The notes beneath the pieces were generated by a model that ran no database searches, was not told the DNA's origin, and saw only the letters and a list, made by a program, of their open reading frames with translations. Below are positions 8,032 to 57,605 of a stretch of DNA of 59,406 nucleotides, one piece after another. A program made the translations under genes and the position numbers. Origin of the DNA: an uncultured Verrucomicrobiales bacterium. GTDB taxonomy: Bacteria; Verrucomicrobiota; Verrucomicrobiia; Verrucomicrobiales; Akkermansiaceae. The DNA lies in contig CALBVY010000006.1 of assembly GCA_937969495.1 (NCBI GenBank), positions 1 through 59,406 of the forward strand, in the 5' to 3' direction. The stretch's first letter is position 1; each line of letters begins with the position of its first letter.

Positions 8032-8113
8032 ACCTTTAAGGCTATGCGATAAAGAGACTTTTTGACTGTTATTAGGTAAAGAATTTTTGTGGTCTTATGT
8101 GACAATAGACTCT

Positions 8114-9991
8114 ATGAACAATGGAATGAATCCTGACGGCTGCAAAGAATATGTGATTGGTAGTGTTAGGTGTCAGGTCTCTCAGGATGCTGATCAGGCG
8201 GCTGTATTGGTAGCTCAGCGTATTGCGCAAATTATTAGAGAGAAATCTGAAGCGGGGGAACCGGCGGTGCTGGGCCTTGCAACAGGCTCTACACCTGTGC
8301 CAGTTTACCAAGAGCTGATCAGGATGCATCGTGAGGAAGGGTTAAGTTTTCAGAATGTACATAGCTTTAACTTAGATGAGTATTATGGGCTGAAAAAGGA
8401 TCATCCTGAGAGTTATCAGAGCTACATGCAGGCGCAGTTGTTTTCTCATGTCGATATCCCACAGGATCAGGCGCATGTGCCAGATGGTATGATTGCCAGG
8501 GAGAATGTGGAAGAGTCTTGTCGGAAATATGAAGAGGCTATTGAGGCATGTGGAGGCTTAGATTTCCAACTACTGGGGATTGGGCGAACTGGTCACATTG
8601 GCTTTAACGAGCCAGGATCGCAGGCGAATTCGAGAACGCGTTTAATTACTCTAGATCCTGTGACGCGGATTGATGCTGCAAGAGACTTTGTGGGCTTAGA
8701 AAATGTTCCTCGTGCAGCCATTACGATGGGGGTGGGGACTATTTTGAACGCTCGTGAGATTTATCTGCTTGCGTGGGGGAGAGGTAAGGCTTCGGTGATT
8801 CGTAAGGCACTTGAGGAATCTCCTACCGAAGACCTCCCTGCTAGCTTGCTGCAGGGACATCAGAAAATTATTTTCGCTCTGAATGCCATGGCTGCTTCAG
8901 AGCTTACCTGCGTTCGTTCTCCGTGGACCAATGGTCAGGTTACTTGGTCTGAAGCCATGATTAAGAGGGCAGTGCACGGCTTATCTCATAAAGTGGGTAA
9001 GCCGATCCTTAAACTCGTCGATAGAGACTACCAGCTTAATGGTCTCGAGGAGTTATTAAGCCTCTATGGCTCTGCTTATGAGTTGAATATTTTGGTCTTT
9101 AAGAGGACTCAGGCAACGATTACTGGGTGGCCTGGAGGTAAGCCAGCAGCAGATGATCGCTCTAGGCCTGTGCCATCTGATCCTACGGAAAAAAGGATTG
9201 TGATTCTAGCTTCAGAGCCTGGCGTGGAGTGTTCACCGCTGGGTGGGACATTGAACCGTCTGCAGAAACAGGGACATCAGGTAAGTATTGTTTATTTAAC
9301 ATCAGGCGGTCTAACGGTAAGTGGCGATGCGGTGAATCGCCTCCAGAATCTTTTAGCCATGATTGCAGAGAGCGGCGGAGTGCTTCAGTCTTCTGAGAAT
9401 TTAAGTTCTGGTCTTTTAGAATTGGTGAAAAAAATTAGTGATGAAGCCACTACGGAGCAGGCTATACGATCATTAATCCGGAAGCATCATAGTGCTTTGG
9501 CGATGAGTGCTCTGAATCTATCTGAGTCCACACATCACTTAAGTTTACCATTTTATGAATCAGGTGGTTATCGGAACTTTGCTCCCAGTGATCAGGATAG
9601 AGAAGTCTTTTTGACATTATTAAATAAGCTTCAGCCTCATCAGATCTATGTCAGTGGTAAGATGTCAGACCCTAGTTCCCTAGAGGGTGTCTGTTGGCAG
9701 CTTTTTGAAGACACCATGTCCGATTGGGGAGAGTGGAAAAATACCAATCAAATTTGGCTTTTCCGTGAGGGTGGAGATAGATGGGAGAGTCATGAAGTTG
9801 ATATGGCAGTTCCTGTGAGTCCAGATGAGCGGGCGCTTAAGGAAGTGGCTATGGCTAAGTATCCGGTGGAAATCTTTTTAGATAAAATGGATGGTGCATT
9901 ACGTGTGGCCAATGATTATGATGATCTCGGATTACCTGAATATGAGGAAATTGAGGCATTCCAGCTTCATAAACCAAGTATCACGGCATGA
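8114..9991 (+). CDS. nagB: Glucosamine-6-phosphate deaminase fused to a degenerate PIG-L domain
   Basis: Positions are counted from an upstream TTG at 8087; the ATG at 8114 is the likelier start. Residues about 30-300 are a NagB isomerase/deaminase domain with ATGSTP, SFNLDEYYG and GIGRTGHIGFNEPGS, which converts glucosamine-6-phosphate to fructose-6-phosphate and ammonia. Residues about 368-630 align with the PIG-L deacetylase domain of the known NagB-PIG-L fusions (GGTLNRLQKQGH, LPFYESGGY, QIYVSG, EVDMAVPVSPDE). The metal motifs are gone: the usual HPDD reads SEPGVE (376-381) and DPHGTH reads DPSSLE (528-533). The C-terminal half is therefore probably a structural or regulatory pseudoenzyme. 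It overlaps the next gene by ATGA. Confidence 0.9.
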   Translation: MNNGMNPDGCKEYVIGSVRCQVSQDADQAAVLVAQRIAQIIREKSEAGEPAVLGLATGSTPVPVYQELIRMHREEGLSFQNVHSFNLDEYYGLKKDHPESYQSYMQAQLFSHVDIPQDQAHVPDGMIARENVEESCRKYEEAIEACGGLDFQLLGIGRTGHIGFNEPGSQANSRTRLITLDPVTRIDAARDFVGLENVPRAAITMGVGTILNAREIYLLAWGRGKASVIRKALEESPTEDLPASLLQGHQKIIFALNAMAASELTCVRSPWTNGQVTWSEAMIKRAVHGLSHKVGKPILKLVDRDYQLNGLEELLSLYGSAYELNILVFKRTQATITGWPGGKPAADDRSRPVPSDPTEKRIVILASEPGVECSPLGGTLNRLQKQGHQVSIVYLTSGGLTVSGDAVNRLQNLLAMIAESGGVLQSSENLSSGLLELVKKISDEATTEQAIRSLIRKHHSALAMSALNLSESTHHLSLPFYESGGYRNFAPSDQDREVFLTLLNKLQPHQIYVSGKMSDPSSLEGVCWQLFEDTMSDWGEWKNTNQIWLFREGGDRWESHEVDMAVPVSPDERALKEVAMAKYPVEIFLDKMDGALRVANDYDDLGLPEYEEIEAFQLHKPSITA

Positions 9992-21283: not shown

Positions 21284-21289
21284 TTGTTT

Positions 21290-21937
21290 ATGACAACACG
21301 CACAAATACTCAGTCTGTAAACTCGTTAGTAAAGTCTGTAGCTTGCATTGCAGCTGGAGCAGCGATTGCTCCTAAGTCCAATGCTGCTATCGTCTTAGCG
21401 AGCTCTGGTGGCGAATCGGCTACTGGTAGCGATTATTTAAATTTTTCACTTACTTTCGATTCTGGTAGCCCAGTCTTGAATATTACCACATCAGCGCCCA
21501 CGAGCTGCACGGGTTTTTCTGTATTTTTCGATCCAGGATGCGGTGGACTATTGTATGCTTTTGGTTTTGATTGTGTGTCACAAATTTACAGAATGGGATG
21601 TGATTCATTTTTTACGGATCCTACAGTAGAAAACACAATCTTAGATGATACATCAGACTGGACCAATAACGCAGCGCTTTATGGGGCTTCGGCTGGTGAG
21701 ACTTACACCTTCGGCTGGAGGCTTTCCGCTGATGGTACTTCAGACAATTATCATTATGGCTGGTCAACTGTGACGACTGGAAGCATCACAAATGATAGCA
21801 CCGCATTTAACACTACCGTCAATGGGTCTATTACTCTAGGCGCTACTACAGTGCCTGAACCTAGCGGAGTGGCACTTTTAGCACTTGGCGGCATGGGGAT
21901 TATAATGCAGCGTAAACGTCGCAACCAATGTGCCTAA
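21290..21937 (+). CDS. PEP-CTERM sorting-domain protein
   Basis: A secreted protein of about 215 residues. A signal peptide ends near PKSNA, the middle is a Ser/Thr/Gly-rich beta-type domain with four or so Cys, and the end is a PEP-CTERM tag (VPEPSGVALLALGGMGIIMQ, then the basic RKRR). Exosortase cleaves such tags and the proteins go to the surface, often glycosylated. The ATG at 21290 is preferred over TTG at 21284. A strong terminator follows, so it is monocistronic. The next gene is an O-GlcNAc-transferase-like protein. Confidence 0.88.
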   Translation: MTTRTNTQSVNSLVKSVACIAAGAAIAPKSNAAIVLASSGGESATGSDYLNFSLTFDSGSPVLNITTSAPTSCTGFSVFFDPGCGGLLYAFGFDCVSQIYRMGCDSFFTDPTVENTILDDTSDWTNNAALYGASAGETYTFGWRLSADGTSDNYHYGWSTVTTGSITNDSTAFNTTVNGSITLGATTVPEPSGVALLALGGMGIIMQRKRRNQCA

Positions 21938-26653: not shown

Positions 26654-27325
26654 TCAATGTGTTCGATTTCGCCTAATTGAAAAACTAAATAGTCCAAAAC
26701 CCAAAAGAAAAGCACAAGATGGCTCAGGAACAATCATAACTTGTATTGGTGCAAATCCAGATTCTGATTCGAATGATGGAAAGTTTGATAAAGTCAAAAA
26801 CGATTCAAAAATCTCCTCATTTACACCTTCAAGACTGTAAGTAATCTCTTCACCTCTACCAATAATTGTCGCTTCTAAATCAGAACTTTCCGACACTAAA
26901 AAAATGGTCAAAACACATTGGTCAATTTGATGCGTAATATTAACATCATCAATGCGTGCCGTACTGATACGGAAAACAAGATCATGCTCAGGGCTCAATA
27001 AGCTGTTGGTATGAATATCAAAAATAGACTCAAGCATATGATTTGATGAATCCATATTGATTAATGCAGTTGTGCCATTTGATAAAATGTCAGAATTTCT
27101 TAGTGCGCCCCACCTAGAGGCATATCCTGTTAGGGGGATTATTCCACTACCAAACACCCGGCTATCACGAGAGAAAGAACCCGTGTAGGAACCGTCGAAT
27201 GATATTGTGTTCCTATTGGGATTAATATTCATAGTAAGTGCTGCATCTACTTCAAAACAAGCGAGTTTCATAATGCAAAAAAGCAGCGATAAGAATTTGA
27301 AAGTGTTCATCTTTGTTGCCGTCAA
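26654..27325 (-). CDS. PEP-CTERM sorting-domain protein
   Basis: A 223-residue exported protein. The hydrophobic signal (FLSLLFCIMKLACF) follows a short basic start; an internal Met at residue 5 is an alternative start. The middle is a beta-rich domain I do not recognise. It ends VPEPSCAFLLGFGLFSFSI plus RRNRTH, a clear PEP-CTERM tag with an unusual Cys in place of the common Ser/Ala. It lies inside the direct-repeat-bounded island. Confidence 0.85.
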   Translation of the reverse strand: MTATKMNTFKFLSLLFCIMKLACFEVDAALTMNINPNRNTISFDGSYTGSFSRDSRVFGSGIIPLTGYASRWGALRNSDILSNGTTALINMDSSNHMLESIFDIHTNSLLSPEHDLVFRISTARIDDVNITHQIDQCVLTIFLVSESSDLEATIIGRGEEITYSLEGVNEEIFESFLTLSNFPSFESESGFAPIQVMIVPEPSCAFLLGFGLFSFSIRRNRTH

Positions 27326-28515: not shown

Positions 28516-29235
28516 TTATGCTCTACGCCTTCTGAAAAAGAAAATAGAAGTGCTAGCTATCAGTAGCAGCGAGGAGGGCTCTGGAACTGCTGTAACAACA
28601 ATATCATCGAGCTGAATCACAGGATTTGGCCAGGCAACGTTGTTGGCTCCAAGATAAATGACAATAGCGTCGTCCGTTCCATTATATTCAAAATCTAAAT
28701 TAAATTGCCCTGTGTTAGTAGAATCGAAGAAATTAATAGTTTGAGTAGCTAGTTGTGTGGAGACGGCGTTAGTGTTATTAGATGTTGCAACCAAGTCACC
28801 TGTCTGTGCATTCATAACGAGACCATCATCCGAGTTTTGGACGAATCCATCTGCAGAAAAAACAGAAACCTCTAAGCTAGCAGCATTCGGCTGTCCGTTG
28901 GTAGATGAAAAGTCAAAGCTGAGCACGTTGAAACCCACACTATATGTTCCTGCTCCTGCTAGCATCGCAGAATCAAGGGCTATACCAATTCCACGATAGT
29001 TACTATTTGAAAATAGTTGTAGAACATTATTACCTCCTGTTGTCTCGATTGTTGCATTAGCAGAAACAGAAATTTCTCCAAAAGTTGCAAAAGGTGAATA
29101 ATGACCTAAAGTCGCCTGCGTTGCGGTTGGTAACGTTACTGACGAAAAATCCTCTTCATAAACGATAACACTACCCAATAAAGGTGTATTCAAACCAATA
29201 ACAGCAGCTACCATTAAATAATTTGTTATTTTCAT
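28516..29235 (-). CDS. PEP-CTERM sorting-domain protein
   Basis: A 239-residue exported protein with a signal peptide (NYLMVAAVIGLNTPLLGS) and a jelly-roll-like beta domain (EEDFSSVTLPTA at the start, IQLDDIVVTA at the end). The tag is VPEPSSLLLIASTSIFFF followed by RRRRA. The domain order suggests a lectin-like or carbohydrate-binding module, but this is only an impression. It is the third PEP-CTERM gene within 8 kb; no exosortase gene is visible in the window. Confidence 0.87.
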   Translation of the reverse strand: MKITNYLMVAAVIGLNTPLLGSVIVYEEDFSSVTLPTATQATLGHYSPFATFGEISVSANATIETTGGNNVLQLFSNSNYRGIGIALDSAMLAGAGTYSVGFNVLSFDFSSTNGQPNAASLEVSVFSADGFVQNSDDGLVMNAQTGDLVATSNNTNAVSTQLATQTINFFDSTNTGQFNLDFEYNGTDDAIVIYLGANNVAWPNPVIQLDDIVVTAVPEPSSLLLIASTSIFFFRRRRA

Positions 29236-53005: not shown

Positions 53006-53452
53006 TTAGGGGAGTAAATGCTCTTGGAATTTGGCATTGGGTAGAGAGCAAGTATCTTTGCCTAATTGAAGTCGATGCCTATTACGTGCTATCAATTGAT
53101 AAAGACCAGATTTGAACCACCTTGGAAGCAAGTGGAGCGGCCAGAAAATAACGAAAACACCGCCTGCTAGGTAGAGGGCACGTAAGATAGCGTCGGCACC
53201 ACGCCAGTGAACTTGTTGATCTGTTTGCCAAGCCTCGGTGAGAACTGCTGCACCTGTAGCTTGGTTGTTGTCACCTTTGAGTTCACGCCATGATGATGGA
53301 AGAACGCTCGCTGTTTCTCCCTGGAGTGGCGCATAGTATAGGCGGCCACGTCGATCTATCTGATGTAGCAAGGTGGCAGATTTTTGGCAAAATACGCAGT
53401 CGCCATCAAGAAAGAGGACGTGTCGTGATTTGCTGGATACTTTGGCACTCAT
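53006..53452 (-). CDS. DCC-family thiol-disulfide oxidoreductase (DUF393)
   Basis: A 148-residue protein beginning VLFLDGDCVFCQKSA; the DGxCxxC motif has Cys at 19 and 22. It has a membrane-associating hydrophobic stretch (LAGGVFVIFWPLHLLP) and ends in the family's LYQLIARNRHRL. DCC proteins are often encoded beside HTTM or DoxX-type membrane proteins, and here the upstream gene on the same strand is an HTTM fusion 50 bases away. Possible role: redox partner of the cluster. That role is inferred. Confidence 0.85.
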   Translation of the reverse strand: MSAKVSSKSRHVLFLDGDCVFCQKSATLLHQIDRRGRLYYAPLQGETASVLPSSWRELKGDNNQATGAAVLTEAWQTDQQVHWRGADAILRALYLAGGVFVIFWPLHLLPRWFKSGLYQLIARNRHRLQLGKDTCSLPNAKFQEHLLP

Positions 53453-53502
53453 TGAGGGGATCTTTAAGTTAATGGATAGTCAGATACTTGTCATCCATGA
53501 TA

Positions 53503-55155
53503 TTACTTTGGCTTTATGATACCCCATGCGTCAGTGACTTGTCTTGGCGTCATAATATCGAGGTAGCCATTCCGCTTCGCAGCGTAGAGATCAAAACCAC
53601 TGTAGCTCAATGCAGCAACGATCAAAGTCGTGCATGTGTAACTTTTACTAACATCTTCTTCTGTGAGGGGAAAAAGATTGCCGTTTCCTAACCCCAATGT
53701 GGCTTTGAAATCGTATGAGTCATCTGGCGAAGAACATTTTTTAGTGCTGTATTGAGTAAATTGATGCAGTCGAGATACATCGATAGATCCGGCTGGTGGA
53801 CGGTAGGCGATCCATGATTTGTCTTGGAGGTAGTCCCAGGATGCATCAGTGTTGACAGCCTGTTTCATAGCTACTTGCAAAAGTCTGTGATCAGCGTGGC
53901 CTTGCCCTTCGAGCTCTCTATGAGGATCGGGAACGATAATGCTAACATGCCCATAGCGGAACAATTCATAGGGGATTTTTTGTAACTTTCTGTGTTTGAG
54001 GTGACCTCTGGCCTCGCTATGGCTCATGTAAAAAGCAATGACATCGCCAGTACGGAGCAAGGCGGTTTTCTTTGCGAAGTCTTCGCGATCTTTTGCTGCA
54101 TGGTAGTCCACGATGACTGCCATTTGTTGTGGCTCTCTGTGAGTGTGCTGTGTTTTACGTATTACTGATCTTTTGCTGAAGGGCTTCTCCATAGAAGAGA
54201 AAGGAAAGATACCATTATGGGGGGACTTGCTAGAGCAGGCATTGATCAGAGCAATCGTGAATAGAACAAGGAATAGGAGGTGTATGATACGAGAACGAAA
54301 AAATCGACCAGTTAGGTTTTTGGTATATCGTAAGCAGATCTCTGATTTTTTCTTCCATGCGGTTAGCCAAGATCCTTGCACTGTAAAGAGATGAACCATG
54401 ATCATACCAAGGCTAAGGTCAGTGAAGTCGATAGTGAGCACGATACCTATGTGCATTAGTAACATCGCGAACCATGCGAACTGGCGTGTGGATCGCAAGA
54501 TAGCAAGGGGGATAAAGCATACTTCGAGAAAAAGAACTGCCCACGTCATCGCCATCATAGAGCCATCTGGTAAATGGAGCATTAGATGTCTAACAAATCC
54601 AGGCCTAGCCAATGGGTTGTGCATTAAATGCATCAGGGCTGAGCCATCGATCCAACTAGGGCTACTGAGCTTCAAGATACCTGAAAAAGTATAGCCAGTT
54701 GCCAGCAAGACCCAAGCCGTCAAGGGTATCAACCTAGGTAGCTTTTTAAAATCTTTGGGTACAGCGGCGCAGAGCAATAGCAGCATACCAACGTAGCCAA
54801 GGCTTGGATTCGCAGTGAGTGGATTTGCCGTATACAAACACGAATGCAAAAACCACAAGATAAGAGCACAGGTGCGACTCAACCTTCCCAAAGCAAATAG
54901 AACCGAAGTGAAGACACCAATCGCTATAAAAATTTCGACAAATGTAGGCGTGCCCCAGTAGAAAATAGGATTTGGCCACGTTCCATTGAATGGATTGATA
55001 CCCTCCATCCCCATGATGCCATGGAGACTGAATATTTCACCCGCATAGGGAATGAGCGCTGCAAAATGGAAGCATAAATAAATTCCAAAGACTGCACGAA
55101 ACAATTGGAATTGTTTAGCGCTTACATCTGATTGCCTATCTAATATTTTCTTCAT
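53503..55155 (-). CDS. HTTM membrane domain fused to a permuted-papain (YiiX-like) domain
   Basis: A 550-residue protein. Residues 1-290 are an HTTM/gamma-carboxylase-like membrane domain: FRAVFGIYLCFHFAALIPYA at the start, INPFNGTWPNPIFYWGTPTF, GYTFSGILKLSSPSWIDGSA, and FLEVCFIPLAIL near the middle, with several helices. Residues about 340-550 read as a YiiX/YebB-like permuted NlpC/P60 peptidase: TGDVIAFYMS, YGHVSIIVPD (H403), SWDYLQDKS, YDFKA, and SYTCTTLIVAAL (C508). The Cys and His order suits the permuted papain fold, which often cleaves amides of lipids or peptides. The gene is four bases after a secreted-protein gene. Confidence 0.7.
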   Translation of the reverse strand: MKKILDRQSDVSAKQFQLFRAVFGIYLCFHFAALIPYAGEIFSLHGIMGMEGINPFNGTWPNPIFYWGTPTFVEIFIAIGVFTSVLFALGRLSRTCALILWFLHSCLYTANPLTANPSLGYVGMLLLLCAAVPKDFKKLPRLIPLTAWVLLATGYTFSGILKLSSPSWIDGSALMHLMHNPLARPGFVRHLMLHLPDGSMMAMTWAVLFLEVCFIPLAILRSTRQFAWFAMLLMHIGIVLTIDFTDLSLGMIMVHLFTVQGSWLTAWKKKSEICLRYTKNLTGRFFRSRIIHLLFLVLFTIALINACSSKSPHNGIFPFSSMEKPFSKRSVIRKTQHTHREPQQMAVIVDYHAAKDREDFAKKTALLRTGDVIAFYMSHSEARGHLKHRKLQKIPYELFRYGHVSIIVPDPHRELEGQGHADHRLLQVAMKQAVNTDASWDYLQDKSWIAYRPPAGSIDVSRLHQFTQYSTKKCSSPDDSYDFKATLGLGNGNLFPLTEEDVSKSYTCTTLIVAALSYSGFDLYAAKRNGYLDIMTPRQVTDAWGIIKPK

Positions 55156-55159
55156 GTTG

Positions 55160-55666
55160 CTATTGTATTGAAGGCTGAAGTGTCCACTGGTTCGTAGAAC
55201 CTGCTGTGCGACTTGTTATTCGGATACGGAAATGGGTGGCGTTTTTAGGTAAGCCCAATTCAGAGGGAACCTTGCCAGGGGCTATGAGTGAGTAATAAAG
55301 GGTTTCTTGGCTGAGCTTACTTGGCATCGCAGGCCCGTAGGCAAGGACGGCACCATAGACATTGCGGCGCTGGTAGGGGCCTTTCATTTTTTGATAGATT
55401 TCAGGTGTGATGGTTAGGATTTGATCACGTTTGTTTCCGATGTCGTAGATCAATTCAAAGTCCATGGCAAAAGTCTCGAATGCTCTGCCGTCCGACTTAT
55501 CGTACGCTTGGCAAAAAACTTTGGTGTATGGGGCTGCTCCGGATGCGAGGCCGAGCCCTTTGATCTTAGGAATATCAAAAATGTGTCCTAACATTGCCGT
55601 GCTTCCCCAGCCTAGGATACACAGCGCGAGTAGATTGCTTTTTTGTAAAATGGTTAGCTTCATCAC
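55160..55666 (-). CDS. Small secreted hypothetical protein of the HTTM cluster
   Basis: A 168-residue protein with a hydrophobic N-terminus (LLALCILGWGSTAMLGHIF) that looks like a signal or anchor. The rest is beta-rich with one Cys and no recognised motif. It overlaps the hydroxylase gene by ATGA and is followed by the HTTM fusion after four bases, so the three are surely co-transcribed. Confidence 0.7.
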   Translation of the reverse strand: MMKLTILQKSNLLALCILGWGSTAMLGHIFDIPKIKGLGLASGAAPYTKVFCQAYDKSDGRAFETFAMDFELIYDIGNKRDQILTITPEIYQKMKGPYQRRNVYGAVLAYGPAMPSKLSQETLYYSLIAPGKVPSELGLPKNATHFRIRITSRTAGSTNQWTLQPSIQ

Positions 55667-56499
55667 ATTGTGTCTATTTTTTCAGTTCGAGATTGATGAC
55701 AGGCCCAGCGCTTCGAGCAGCCGATACATGTTGGGAGGAGATGGAGCAGAGGTTGTTGAGTATCTGCAGTCTGATGCACATCATCGAAGGATAGCATGTC
55801 CTTGAATTGCGACTCCTTTGCAGCATCGAAGCCACATTTCCTTACTAATTTCTTGGGATTCTGGTAGGTTCCAAAAAGCATGTCCCAGAGAGGGATGTCC
55901 GAGTAATTGTGTGTGTGGTGATTACGCTGGTGGTGGACTCGGTGAGATTCTGGTCGCTGGAAAAAGGGCCCAATCCACCTAGGCGTTTTGATGTTCCAGT
56001 GGTAGAAAAGCTCAGCTACTCCAGTAGCCAGAGTTACTAGTGCAGCTGCTTCTGTACTGCAGCCTAGAATGACGAAGGTGATGATAGAGCTCAGCAGCCC
56101 ATTGATTAAGATTTCTACAGGGTGCTTATAAAAAGACATCAGCACTTCCATCCGGCGTGGAGAGTGATGGAGCTGGTGACATAGTCTCCAGAAAAATGGT
56201 GAGTTATGCCGAATGCGATGCCACCAGTAGTAGATGAATGTTATACTTATATAGCCAATGCCTATCTGGGGAATGATCCCCACGTGTTTGCGTAATGACC
56301 ATGGTTGGATACTTGCAGTATGATCCATGAGGATATCCCATGATCCTCCTAACAGTATTACAATTCCAGCCTGTGCGAAATTGGTCAGTAGCACGCGAGG
56401 CCACCATTTTTTAACTTTGGGGAGCTGGTTAGCTGGCCACCATTTCTCTACGAGGAACATGGCGGATACCACGCACAACATGATCAATACCGTTGTCAT
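55663..56499 (-). CDS. Fatty-acid hydroxylase / sterol desaturase-family membrane protein
   Basis: A di-iron membrane enzyme of 278 residues. The His boxes are WWHRIRHNSPFFWRLCHQLH followed by HHSPRR, and ESHRVHHQRNHHTHNYSDIP. It has four or so hydrophobic segments. The family hydroxylates or desaturates lipids (fatty acids, sterols, carotenoids). It is first in the cluster, just downstream of a 14-bp inverted repeat. The lipid substrate is unknown. Confidence 0.9.
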   Translation of the reverse strand: MTTVLIMLCVVSAMFLVEKWWPANQLPKVKKWWPRVLLTNFAQAGIVILLGGSWDILMDHTASIQPWSLRKHVGIIPQIGIGYISITFIYYWWHRIRHNSPFFWRLCHQLHHSPRRMEVLMSFYKHPVEILINGLLSSIITFVILGCSTEAAALVTLATGVAELFYHWNIKTPRWIGPFFQRPESHRVHHQRNHHTHNYSDIPLWDMLFGTYQNPKKLVRKCGFDAAKESQFKDMLSFDDVHQTADTQQPLLHLLPTCIGCSKRWACHQSRTEKIDTM

Positions 56500-56523
56500 G
56501 CTGAAAAGATGACATAGTATTAA

Positions 56524-56572
56524 TTATTGTTTTAATCGAATATAATGAGTTTGATATTGATTAAAACAATAA
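56524..56572 (-). promoter_or_regulatory. 14-bp inverted repeat in the promoter of the desaturase-HTTM cluster
   Basis: TTATTGTTTTAATC (56524-56537) and GATTAAAACAATAA (56559-56572) are exact reverse complements with 21 bases between. The site starts 25 bases before the hydroxylase start, and AT-rich -10-like words lie inside it. It fits a dimeric repressor operator, though a foldback element is possible. Confidence 0.45.
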
Positions 56573-56644: not shown

Positions 56645-57605
56645 TTGCATACGATGGCATCGGCAACCGCAAAAAAAGCGCCAAATAGCCTCTCCCTCCC
56701 AATCGATCAAAACGGCAACGCCACCCTAGTATGGGATGCAGAGAACCGCCTCAGTGCAGTCACCCGTGCCGATGCCACCGCATCAGCAAACAAATCGGCA
56801 ACACAGCAGCCACCTACTACATATACGATGGCTGGAATCCGATTGCAGAATACACTGGCACCACGCTCAATACGAGCTACACTGGGGTATGGATCTCAGT
56901 GGCAGCATGCAAGGAACAGGAGGCGTAGGAGGCCTCCTCGCCGTCACCGAGCACGGCACATCCAGCGCGGAGCACTTTTACCCGACCTACGATGGCAACG
57001 GCAACATCAGTGAATACCTAGATGCCACCAGCACAACCGTAGCCCACTACGAGTATGACACCTTTGGCAACACAACCGTAAGCACCGGCAGCAAAGTCGC
57101 AGACTTCGTCCACAGATTCAGCACGAAGCCCCTAGATGCCGAAACCGGCCTCTACTACTACGGATACAGATACTACGATCCGGTGACAGGCAGATGGCCA
57201 AGCAGAGATCCTCTCTTAGAAAAAGGGGGGATGAATATTTACGGGTTTGTCGGAAATCAGCCTATAAGTAGGTTTGATATGGATGGTCGAGTATGGATAG
57301 CGTGGCAAGATGCAGATTGTATGGCGAAATGTGGAGAGCAGTATTTAATTGATATGGCTGTGGTTGGAGCAACTTTAGTTGGAGGTATTATAGCAGGGGC
57401 AATTTTTCCTGCTGCCGCACCATTGATTGCAGCACTTACTGTTCGTGTTGTAGCAGCCTCCCTAAAATATATGATCTGTATGGGGCGTTGTATTATTAGG
57501 GAGTGGATTGGACCTGGCCCTCCTCAAGATGAACTTGCTTGTTGTGACTGTTATGACGGAACTGTGGCGTATTATAACGAACAAGAGCAATGTCCATGTA
57601 TTTAA
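56645..57605 (+). pseudogene. Truncated, frameshifted Rhs repeat protein with Cys-rich C-terminal tip
   Basis: The Rhs core is recognisable in three frames in turn: NGNATLVWDAENRLSAVTRA, then ATYYIYDGWNPIAEYTGTTL, then GLLAVTEHGTSSAEHFYP, YDGNGNISEYLD and the RHS core motif AETGLYYYGYRYYDPVTGRW with PSRDPL. Single-base shifts near 56775-56790 and 56880 split it, and the large N-terminal part is absent. After the core (FDMDGRVW) comes a tip of about 100 residues with hydrophobic helices and many Cys, ending CCDCYDG and CPCI. The core-tip join is intact in one frame from about 56736. It resembles orphan Rhs tips of polymorphic toxins; this tip is not a family I know. Confidence 0.82.

Follow-up and report, generated by a model that had tools for sequence, protein, structure and literature searches.

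Bacterial HTTM proteins are numerous and, to our knowledge, nearly all are without a known function. Here we describe an operon encoding one of them in DNA from an uncultured bacterium of the Akkermansiaceae (assembly GCA_937969495.1, contig CALBVY010000006.1). The whole stretch analysed, 59,406 nucleotides, is referred to as the window. Our main finding is that the HTTM protein belongs to a conserved module found in about ten phyla. Its partners are a fatty-acid hydroxylase family protein (FAH), a small anchored protein (SML) and a DCC-type domain or protein (DCC). In Verrucomicrobiota, a predicted papain-like domain (PAP) has been added and, in the window, this is fused directly to HTTM.

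The window operon is on the minus strand. In order of transcription, it consists of the genes for FAH (55663-56499; 278 residues), SML (55160-55666; 168 residues, with a GTG start), the HTTM-PAP fusion (53503-55155; 550 residues) and DCC (53006-53452; 148 residues). An earlier sequence-only reading of this DNA had described four minus-strand genes separated by -4, 4 and 50 bases, and the open reading frame coordinates give the same spacing. The four genes form a single operon.

A conserved module in about ten phyla

A profile of SML was used to scan one genome per species, and 79 loci were identified. These are in Verrucomicrobiota, Planctomycetota, Acidobacteriota, Myxococcota, Bdellovibrionota and Pseudomonadota (Lysobacter and Luteimonas), with further loci in Bacteroidota, Chlamydiota, Elusimicrobiota, Melainabacteria and SAR324. 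About ten phyla are represented overall; note that many loci are metagenome bins, for which individual phylum placements may be wrong. Every one of the 79 loci encodes an HTTM of the same subfamily. FAH is encoded at 76, on the same strand in 74 cases, and is fused to SML at seven. DCC is found at 62 loci and, every time, is fused to HTTM. In this respect the module resembles known HTTM-DCC pairs and fusions, but the module version is tied to FAH and SML. Within the order, 11 of 190 genomes carry SML, and this HTTM subfamily is found in precisely those 11. We conclude that FAH, SML and HTTM(-DCC) are a conserved module and are inherited together. The sequence-only reading had reasoned that homologues should keep the other genes of the cluster and, for HTTM and FAH, this is what the loci show. 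The papain does not belong to the core, which is FAH, SML and HTTM(-DCC); PAP is an addition specific to Verrucomicrobiota, where it adjoins or is fused to HTTM.

At eight loci, a LysR-type gene is divergent from FAH, and is a candidate regulator of the module. Otherwise, no neighbour recurs widely around the 79 loci, nor does any precursor-like small open reading frame. Hence, the module is self-contained. It is also patchy; neither SML nor PAP is present in two sampled genomes from the same genus as the window genome, and a further one has nothing but a distant PAP. The LysR-type genes, recognised by N-terminal sequence, are 39-153 bp from FAH (loci L058, L060, L062, L067, L068, L091, L098 and L119). 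The only changes seen in FAH order are at L056 and L059, where FAH is convergent, on the opposite strand, behind SML-HTTM-DCC. Separately, a 72-residue open frame at L049:8831-9049 (G066) is similar to HTTM residues 201-260 (52%), with the rest of the module absent, and is possibly a decayed copy. No published description of HTTM with a fatty-acid hydroxylase or DCC was found in the literature searched, which left out most subscription-journal papers. The catalytic domains are all of known families; SML, and the combination of domains, are undescribed in that literature.

The HTTM core resembles vitamin K-dependent carboxylase

The HTTM membrane domain spans residues 1-270 (54346-55155, minus strand). 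Alone, the window sequence matches PF05090 with E=6e-4 and 19.9 bits, which does not reach the cut-off of 27.7. Among 36 relatives from the subfamily, 27 match at E<=1e-3, with 2e-9 the best. We also compared the subfamily profile, using hhalign, with L163, a bacterial VKGC relative that provides a bridge to human GGCX (match E=5e-44). The alignment covers 243 columns with P=5.1e-9. A PDB sequence search with the HTTM profile produced no match. HTTM is assigned, from these comparisons, as a homologue of the HTTM/VKGC family.

Through the L163 bridge, HTTM Lys162 (codon 54670-54672) aligns with GGCX Lys218, and Trp168 with Trp223. In GGCX, Lys218 is the base that deprotonates vitamin K hydroquinone, and Trp223 is in the quinone pocket (PMC12589487). 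Lys162 is invariant in 36 HTTM rows and, across the module loci, both Lys162 and Trp168 are 98% conserved. The membrane core is homologous to that of GGCX. GGCX differs in having His160, which helps Glu binding (PMC12589487). We found no counterpart in the 36 HTTM rows, which contain no conserved His around residues 105-125. Although the alignment register beside His160 adjoins a gap, the lack of a conserved His is independent of register. The propeptide-binding domain is also absent at the 79 loci; after the HTTM core, of about 270 residues, the frame carries PAP or DCC, or stops. The companions (FAH, SML and DCC) differ too, and in the fusion a papain is in place of the lumenal domain. Judged by these residues, HTTM is VKGC-like but is predicted not to be a Glu carboxylase. 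Since the Lys218 equivalent is kept, while His160 and the propeptide-binding domain are missing, HTTM looks like an enzyme applying the vitamin-K-type quinol oxygenation step to another substrate.

A core like that of a quinol-epoxidising enzyme could also suggest that a quinone is the target. FAH and HTTM would then hydroxylate or epoxidise a quinone, or polyprenyl lipid, with DCC acting as reductant and PAP esterifying or de-esterifying the product. In line with this, menD scores above cut-off in 11 of 11 module genomes, and DCC is of redox type. Even so, we consider the explanation unlikely. The module is patchy within one genus, and menD is present in several control genomes in addition to the 11 with the module. 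Furthermore, nothing marks the quinone as product and not cofactor.

Partners of HTTM in the module

FAH matches PF04116 (FA_hydroxylase) with E=8.3e-29 and has all eight His residues of the metal-ligand type (H94xxxH98, H108xxH111H112 and H186xxH189H190). These are conserved in 97-99% of 79 rows. FAH is predicted to be a membrane protein of the di-iron fatty-acid hydroxylase/sterol-desaturase family, in agreement with the sequence-only reading. The best NCBIfam match is to OlsE (NF052566), an ornithine lipid hydroxylase. The score of 63 bits is far below the curated cut-off of 475, and assignment as an OlsE equivalog was rejected. Hence, while the di-iron His framework is shared with OlsE-type enzymes, FAH is of another subfamily, with SML as a near-obligate partner. 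In the window, FAH ends with a Cys-containing tail (TCIGCSKRWAC), which is possibly a metal or redox site. The TCxGCxKRWAC tail is conserved in FAHs of the Verrucomicrobiota type (window 55663-55760) and absent from the FAHs of most other phyla.

The DCC protein matches PF04134 (DCC1-like) with E=2.6e-13 and 51.6 bits, above the 27.8 cut-off. It carries C19xxC22, and this CxxC motif is 100% conserved across module loci. The protein is thus classed as a thioredoxin-like thiol-disulfide oxidoreductase of the DCC1 (DUF393) family, as had been proposed.

SML has a single N-terminal membrane helix followed by an alpha/beta domain. The sequence-only reading had called it a small secreted protein; small and of the exported type it is, but it is better described as anchored by this helix. 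In an alignment of 48 sequences, 14 columns are invariant, including Glu64 and the block GPYxRRNV(Y)GA. The AlphaFold2 model has a predicted local distance difference test score (pLDDT) of 91.5. SML and 10 relatives gave no convincing match to any Pfam or NCBIfam family. A Foldseek search of the PDB with the SML model returned only low-probability noise, which we do not take as proof of a new fold.

These properties bear on whether HTTM acts on protein. SML, or another exported protein, might be the HTTM substrate, with FAH and DCC supplying or recycling the cofactor and PAP trimming or transferring. SML is exported or anchored, is always beside HTTM, and has the invariant Glu64 and GPYxRRNVYGA sequence. 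Furthermore, GGCX modifies Glu residues of lumenal proteins (PMC12589487). Such a pairing would be analogous to a dedicated substrate and carboxylase, or to SdpA and SdpB. In Bacillus subtilis, SdpA and SdpB act in maturation of the sporulation-delaying protein and, as with SML, a small protein is paired with an HTTM protein. Despite this likeness, the SdpA model (TIGR04034) matches none of 11 SML members and nothing in the window genome, while the B. subtilis control was positive. Identity with SdpA-SdpB was rejected; no toxin precursor was seen, and FAH and DCC are present instead. We also rejected a system resembling those for ribosomally synthesised and post-translationally modified peptides, having found no precursor peptide near the 79 loci. 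Given this, and the missing His160 counterpart and propeptide-binding domain, we regard modification of a protein as rather unlikely.

PAP is a divergent permuted papain

The PAP domain corresponds to residues 360-550 (53506-54078, minus strand) of the fusion protein. In a Pfam scan, the C-terminal half of the 550-residue protein matched no family convincingly, and PF05708 (YiiX; Peptidase_C92) did not match. Only profile-profile comparison reaches Peptidase_C92; against 25 sequences of that family, hhalign gave a score of 32.1 (P=2.7e-4). As controls, 40 column shuffles scored 20.0 or less, and four unrelated families 17.8 or less. His403 (53947-53949), Cys508 (53632-53634), Tyr481 (53713-53715) and the first-strand GD motif at 370-371 are invariant across 21 aligned relatives. 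The His is N-terminal to the Cys, and separations of 78 residues between His and Tyr, and 27 between Tyr and Cys, equal those in BcPPNE. This permuted NlpC/P60 structure has catalytic residues His49, Tyr127 and Cys154 (PMC3142127).

An AlphaFold2 model of residues 286-550, made from 21 sequences, has a pLDDT of 92.3. Foldseek comparison with predicted viral structures (BFVD) placed an unnamed protein first (probability 1.00) and OPG091, the poxvirus permuted papain of the G6 type, second (probability 0.97). A PDB sequence search with PAP gave no match, and viral contigs searched with the full-length HTTM-PAP protein contained no relatives. The sequence-only reading had proposed a C-terminal permuted papain with a His403 and Cys508 pair. 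The model, the OPG091 match and the Peptidase_C92 profile match agree with this fold, and the pair is conserved. Because PF05708 itself fails to reach the domain, PAP is best placed as a divergent branch of the circularly permuted papains.

Hence, PAP resembles the permuted NlpC/P60 group, comprising YiiX, G6/OPG091, LRAT/HRASLS and LnsA, in its GD motif, in having His before Cys, in the signature Tyr and Y-x-C-x-T/L helix, and in the model. It differs in being below Pfam detection and in being fused behind a membrane redox enzyme, an arrangement for which no description was found in the literature searched. The third position probably differs as well. The triad Glu of C92 enzymes aligns near Gln427 (53875-53877), where 93% of module-linked PAPs have Gln, and the usual Glu appears to have been replaced. 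Note that the third catalytic residue may be dispensable in LRAT (PMC3142127). Two relatives point to lipids; YiiX was crystallised with a fatty acid bound (PMC3142127), and LnsA is required for N-acylation of lipoproteins (PMC7387801).

PAP has joined the module by fusion more than once

A close PAP subfamily occurs in seven of the 190 genomes of the order, and all seven carry the module. If placement were random, such overlap would have a probability of about 2e-10 (uncorrected for relatedness). A distant PAP subfamily is found in seven genomes, with the module in only one of these. PAP is separate and adjacent to the module in Rubritalea relatives (L051, L052 and L055), and is divergent in L061. 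Besides the window, nine loci have fused PAP. Eight, in one clade, encode HTTM-DCC-PAP and the other, L075, encodes HTTM-PAP directly. Hence, the fusion, which the sequence-only reading had not recognised from any known protein, is not unique, though we found no description of it. Stand-alone PAPs are also seen away from the module. In L042 and L044, these have lipoprotein-like signals and adjoin one shared, unrelated, gene set (including, by eye, an Ffh-like gene). In G133, a stand-alone PAP is around 4 kb from LpxB/P286, which could suggest an ancestral site beside LpxB, but other stand-alone PAPs are beside a different, unrelated gene set.

In the HTTM tree, the window groups with L051 and L052 (100/90), far from L075 and the triple-fusion clade. 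Since these three lie apart, the simplest reading is that HTTM and PAP were fused on three separate occasions. The window DCC, although a separate gene, is closest to fused DCC domains (L052, L051, L092 and L055; 38-45% identity). Because these belong to the same relatives, an ancestral order of HTTM-DCC and PAP probably became HTTM-PAP and DCC; in the window, PAP now occupies the place in the fusion that DCC gave up.

This distribution is relevant to two other explanations. PAP might be an envelope peptidase or amidase, cleaving peptidoglycan or lipoprotein, with only a loose link to the redox module and with fusion providing co-localisation. NlpC/P60 enzymes are classically peptidases and amidases (PMC3142127), and the second PAP subfamily does occur in genomes without the module. 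Conversely, the subfamily linked to the module is confined to module genomes, fusion to HTTM is seen at three tree positions, and permuted family members are tied to lipid substrates (PMC3142127, PMC7387801). We think this role improbable. Finally, the window comes from an assembly of 98 contigs, and chance neighbours or an assembly artefact could be envisaged. Since the 550-residue frame is intact, and independent assemblies again contain both the direct fusion and the remaining genes of the module, this can practically be set aside.

A signal-like helix precedes PAP

In the fusion protein, hydropathy indicates a helix between HTTM and PAP (residues 286-308; 54232-54300, minus strand). It resembles a signal peptide and ends with a lipobox-like Cys307 (LFTIALINAC). 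This Cys is shared by nine of 10 distinct fusions, namely the window, L075 and seven of the eight HTTM-DCC-PAP proteins. Stand-alone PAPs mostly start with a lipoprotein signal, or another export signal. Because an export-type helix precedes PAP in the fusions, and stand-alone PAPs have export signals, PAP is likely periplasmic. DCC precedes the helix in triple fusions and, for this reason, is likely cytoplasmic. The order of parts is like that in GGCX, where the core is likewise followed by a further membrane helix and an external domain; transmembrane helix 9 (TM9) leads into the lumenal domain (PMC12589487).

Surroundings of the operon

A perfect 14-bp inverted repeat, with a 21-nucleotide spacer, is 25 bp upstream of the FAH start (56524-56572; arms TTATTGTTTTAATC/GATTAAAACAATAA). 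It is the sole copy in the genome and is a candidate operator. Position 56572, where the sequence-only reading had closed its region, is the end of this repeat. Immediately upstream of the operon, at 56645-57605, overlapping frames encode an Rhs-core fragment (TIGR03696) that resembles a truncated Rhs end. Elsewhere in the window, inspection by eye revealed three secreted proteins with PEP-CTERM-like tails (VPEPS...RRR; 21284-21937, 26654-27325 and 28516-29235). A glucosamine-6-phosphate deaminase-like protein, at 8087-9991, has a long C-terminal extension that, also by eye, looks LmbE/PIG-L-like.

Discussion

We tentatively favour a membrane-bound module for oxidative modification, the product of which is acylated or de-acylated by PAP at the outer face of the inner membrane. 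We infer that the substrate is a lipid. FAH would oxidise a substrate in the lipid phase, by hydroxylation or desaturation, at the membrane. HTTM would bind reduced menaquinone and Lys162 would deprotonate the quinol, activating O2 in the manner of vitamin K-dependent carboxylase. The base or oxidant so formed would have a target other than peptide Glu. On the cytoplasmic side, DCC may feed thiol electrons to re-reduce the quinone. On the periplasmic side, SML may hold the substrate or the complex. The extra helix would place PAP outside the inner membrane, in the topological position of the GGCX lumenal domain. Here, Cys508 would form an acyl-thioester, then transfer an acyl group to the product, or remove one. 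This would make PAP a finishing enzyme, coupled to the redox core and comparable to LnsA and LRAT-type permuted papains in their handling of acyl groups.

Several observations weigh against this model. Quinol use by HTTM rests on one Lys, one Trp and overall homology. Because a VKOR-family gene is present elsewhere in five of 11 module genomes, including that of the window, the quinone could be reduced by something other than DCC. Similarly, menD is common in bacteria and shows no more than a probable supply of menaquinone. In PAP, Gln427 appears to occupy the position of the C92 triad Glu, and the sequence cannot tell a hydrolase from a transferase. Despite a confident model, Foldseek comparison of PAP with the PDB returned only low-probability noise; given that the BFVD search was informative, we do not count this against the fold. 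Membrane topology was derived from crude hydropathy. The sequence-only reading had proposed that the cluster makes, attaches or removes a modified lipid. This is consistent with the protein families, but neither a substrate gene nor a lipid-pathway neighbour recurs around the 79 loci.

A more specific proposal can be made, though we regard it as speculative and unlikely in its entirety. FAH-SML-HTTM-DCC would be an enzyme system of about ten phyla, so far undescribed, that uses vitamin-K-type quinol chemistry on a non-peptide, and probably lipid, substrate. In Verrucomicrobiota, this system would be completed by an LRAT/LnsA-like thiol acyltransferase, in the position of the carboxylase substrate-binding domain, that may be released as a lipoprotein via the internal lipobox.

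A conserved set of partners, comprising a di-iron hydroxylase and a new protein family, together with Rosetta-stone fusions, gives a handle on bacterial quinol chemistry other than Glu carboxylation. The papain fusion hints at a step following the redox reaction and provides a catalytic residue that can be tested. Should the chemistry be confirmed, the module would be a new pathway for lipid or envelope modification in many phyla.

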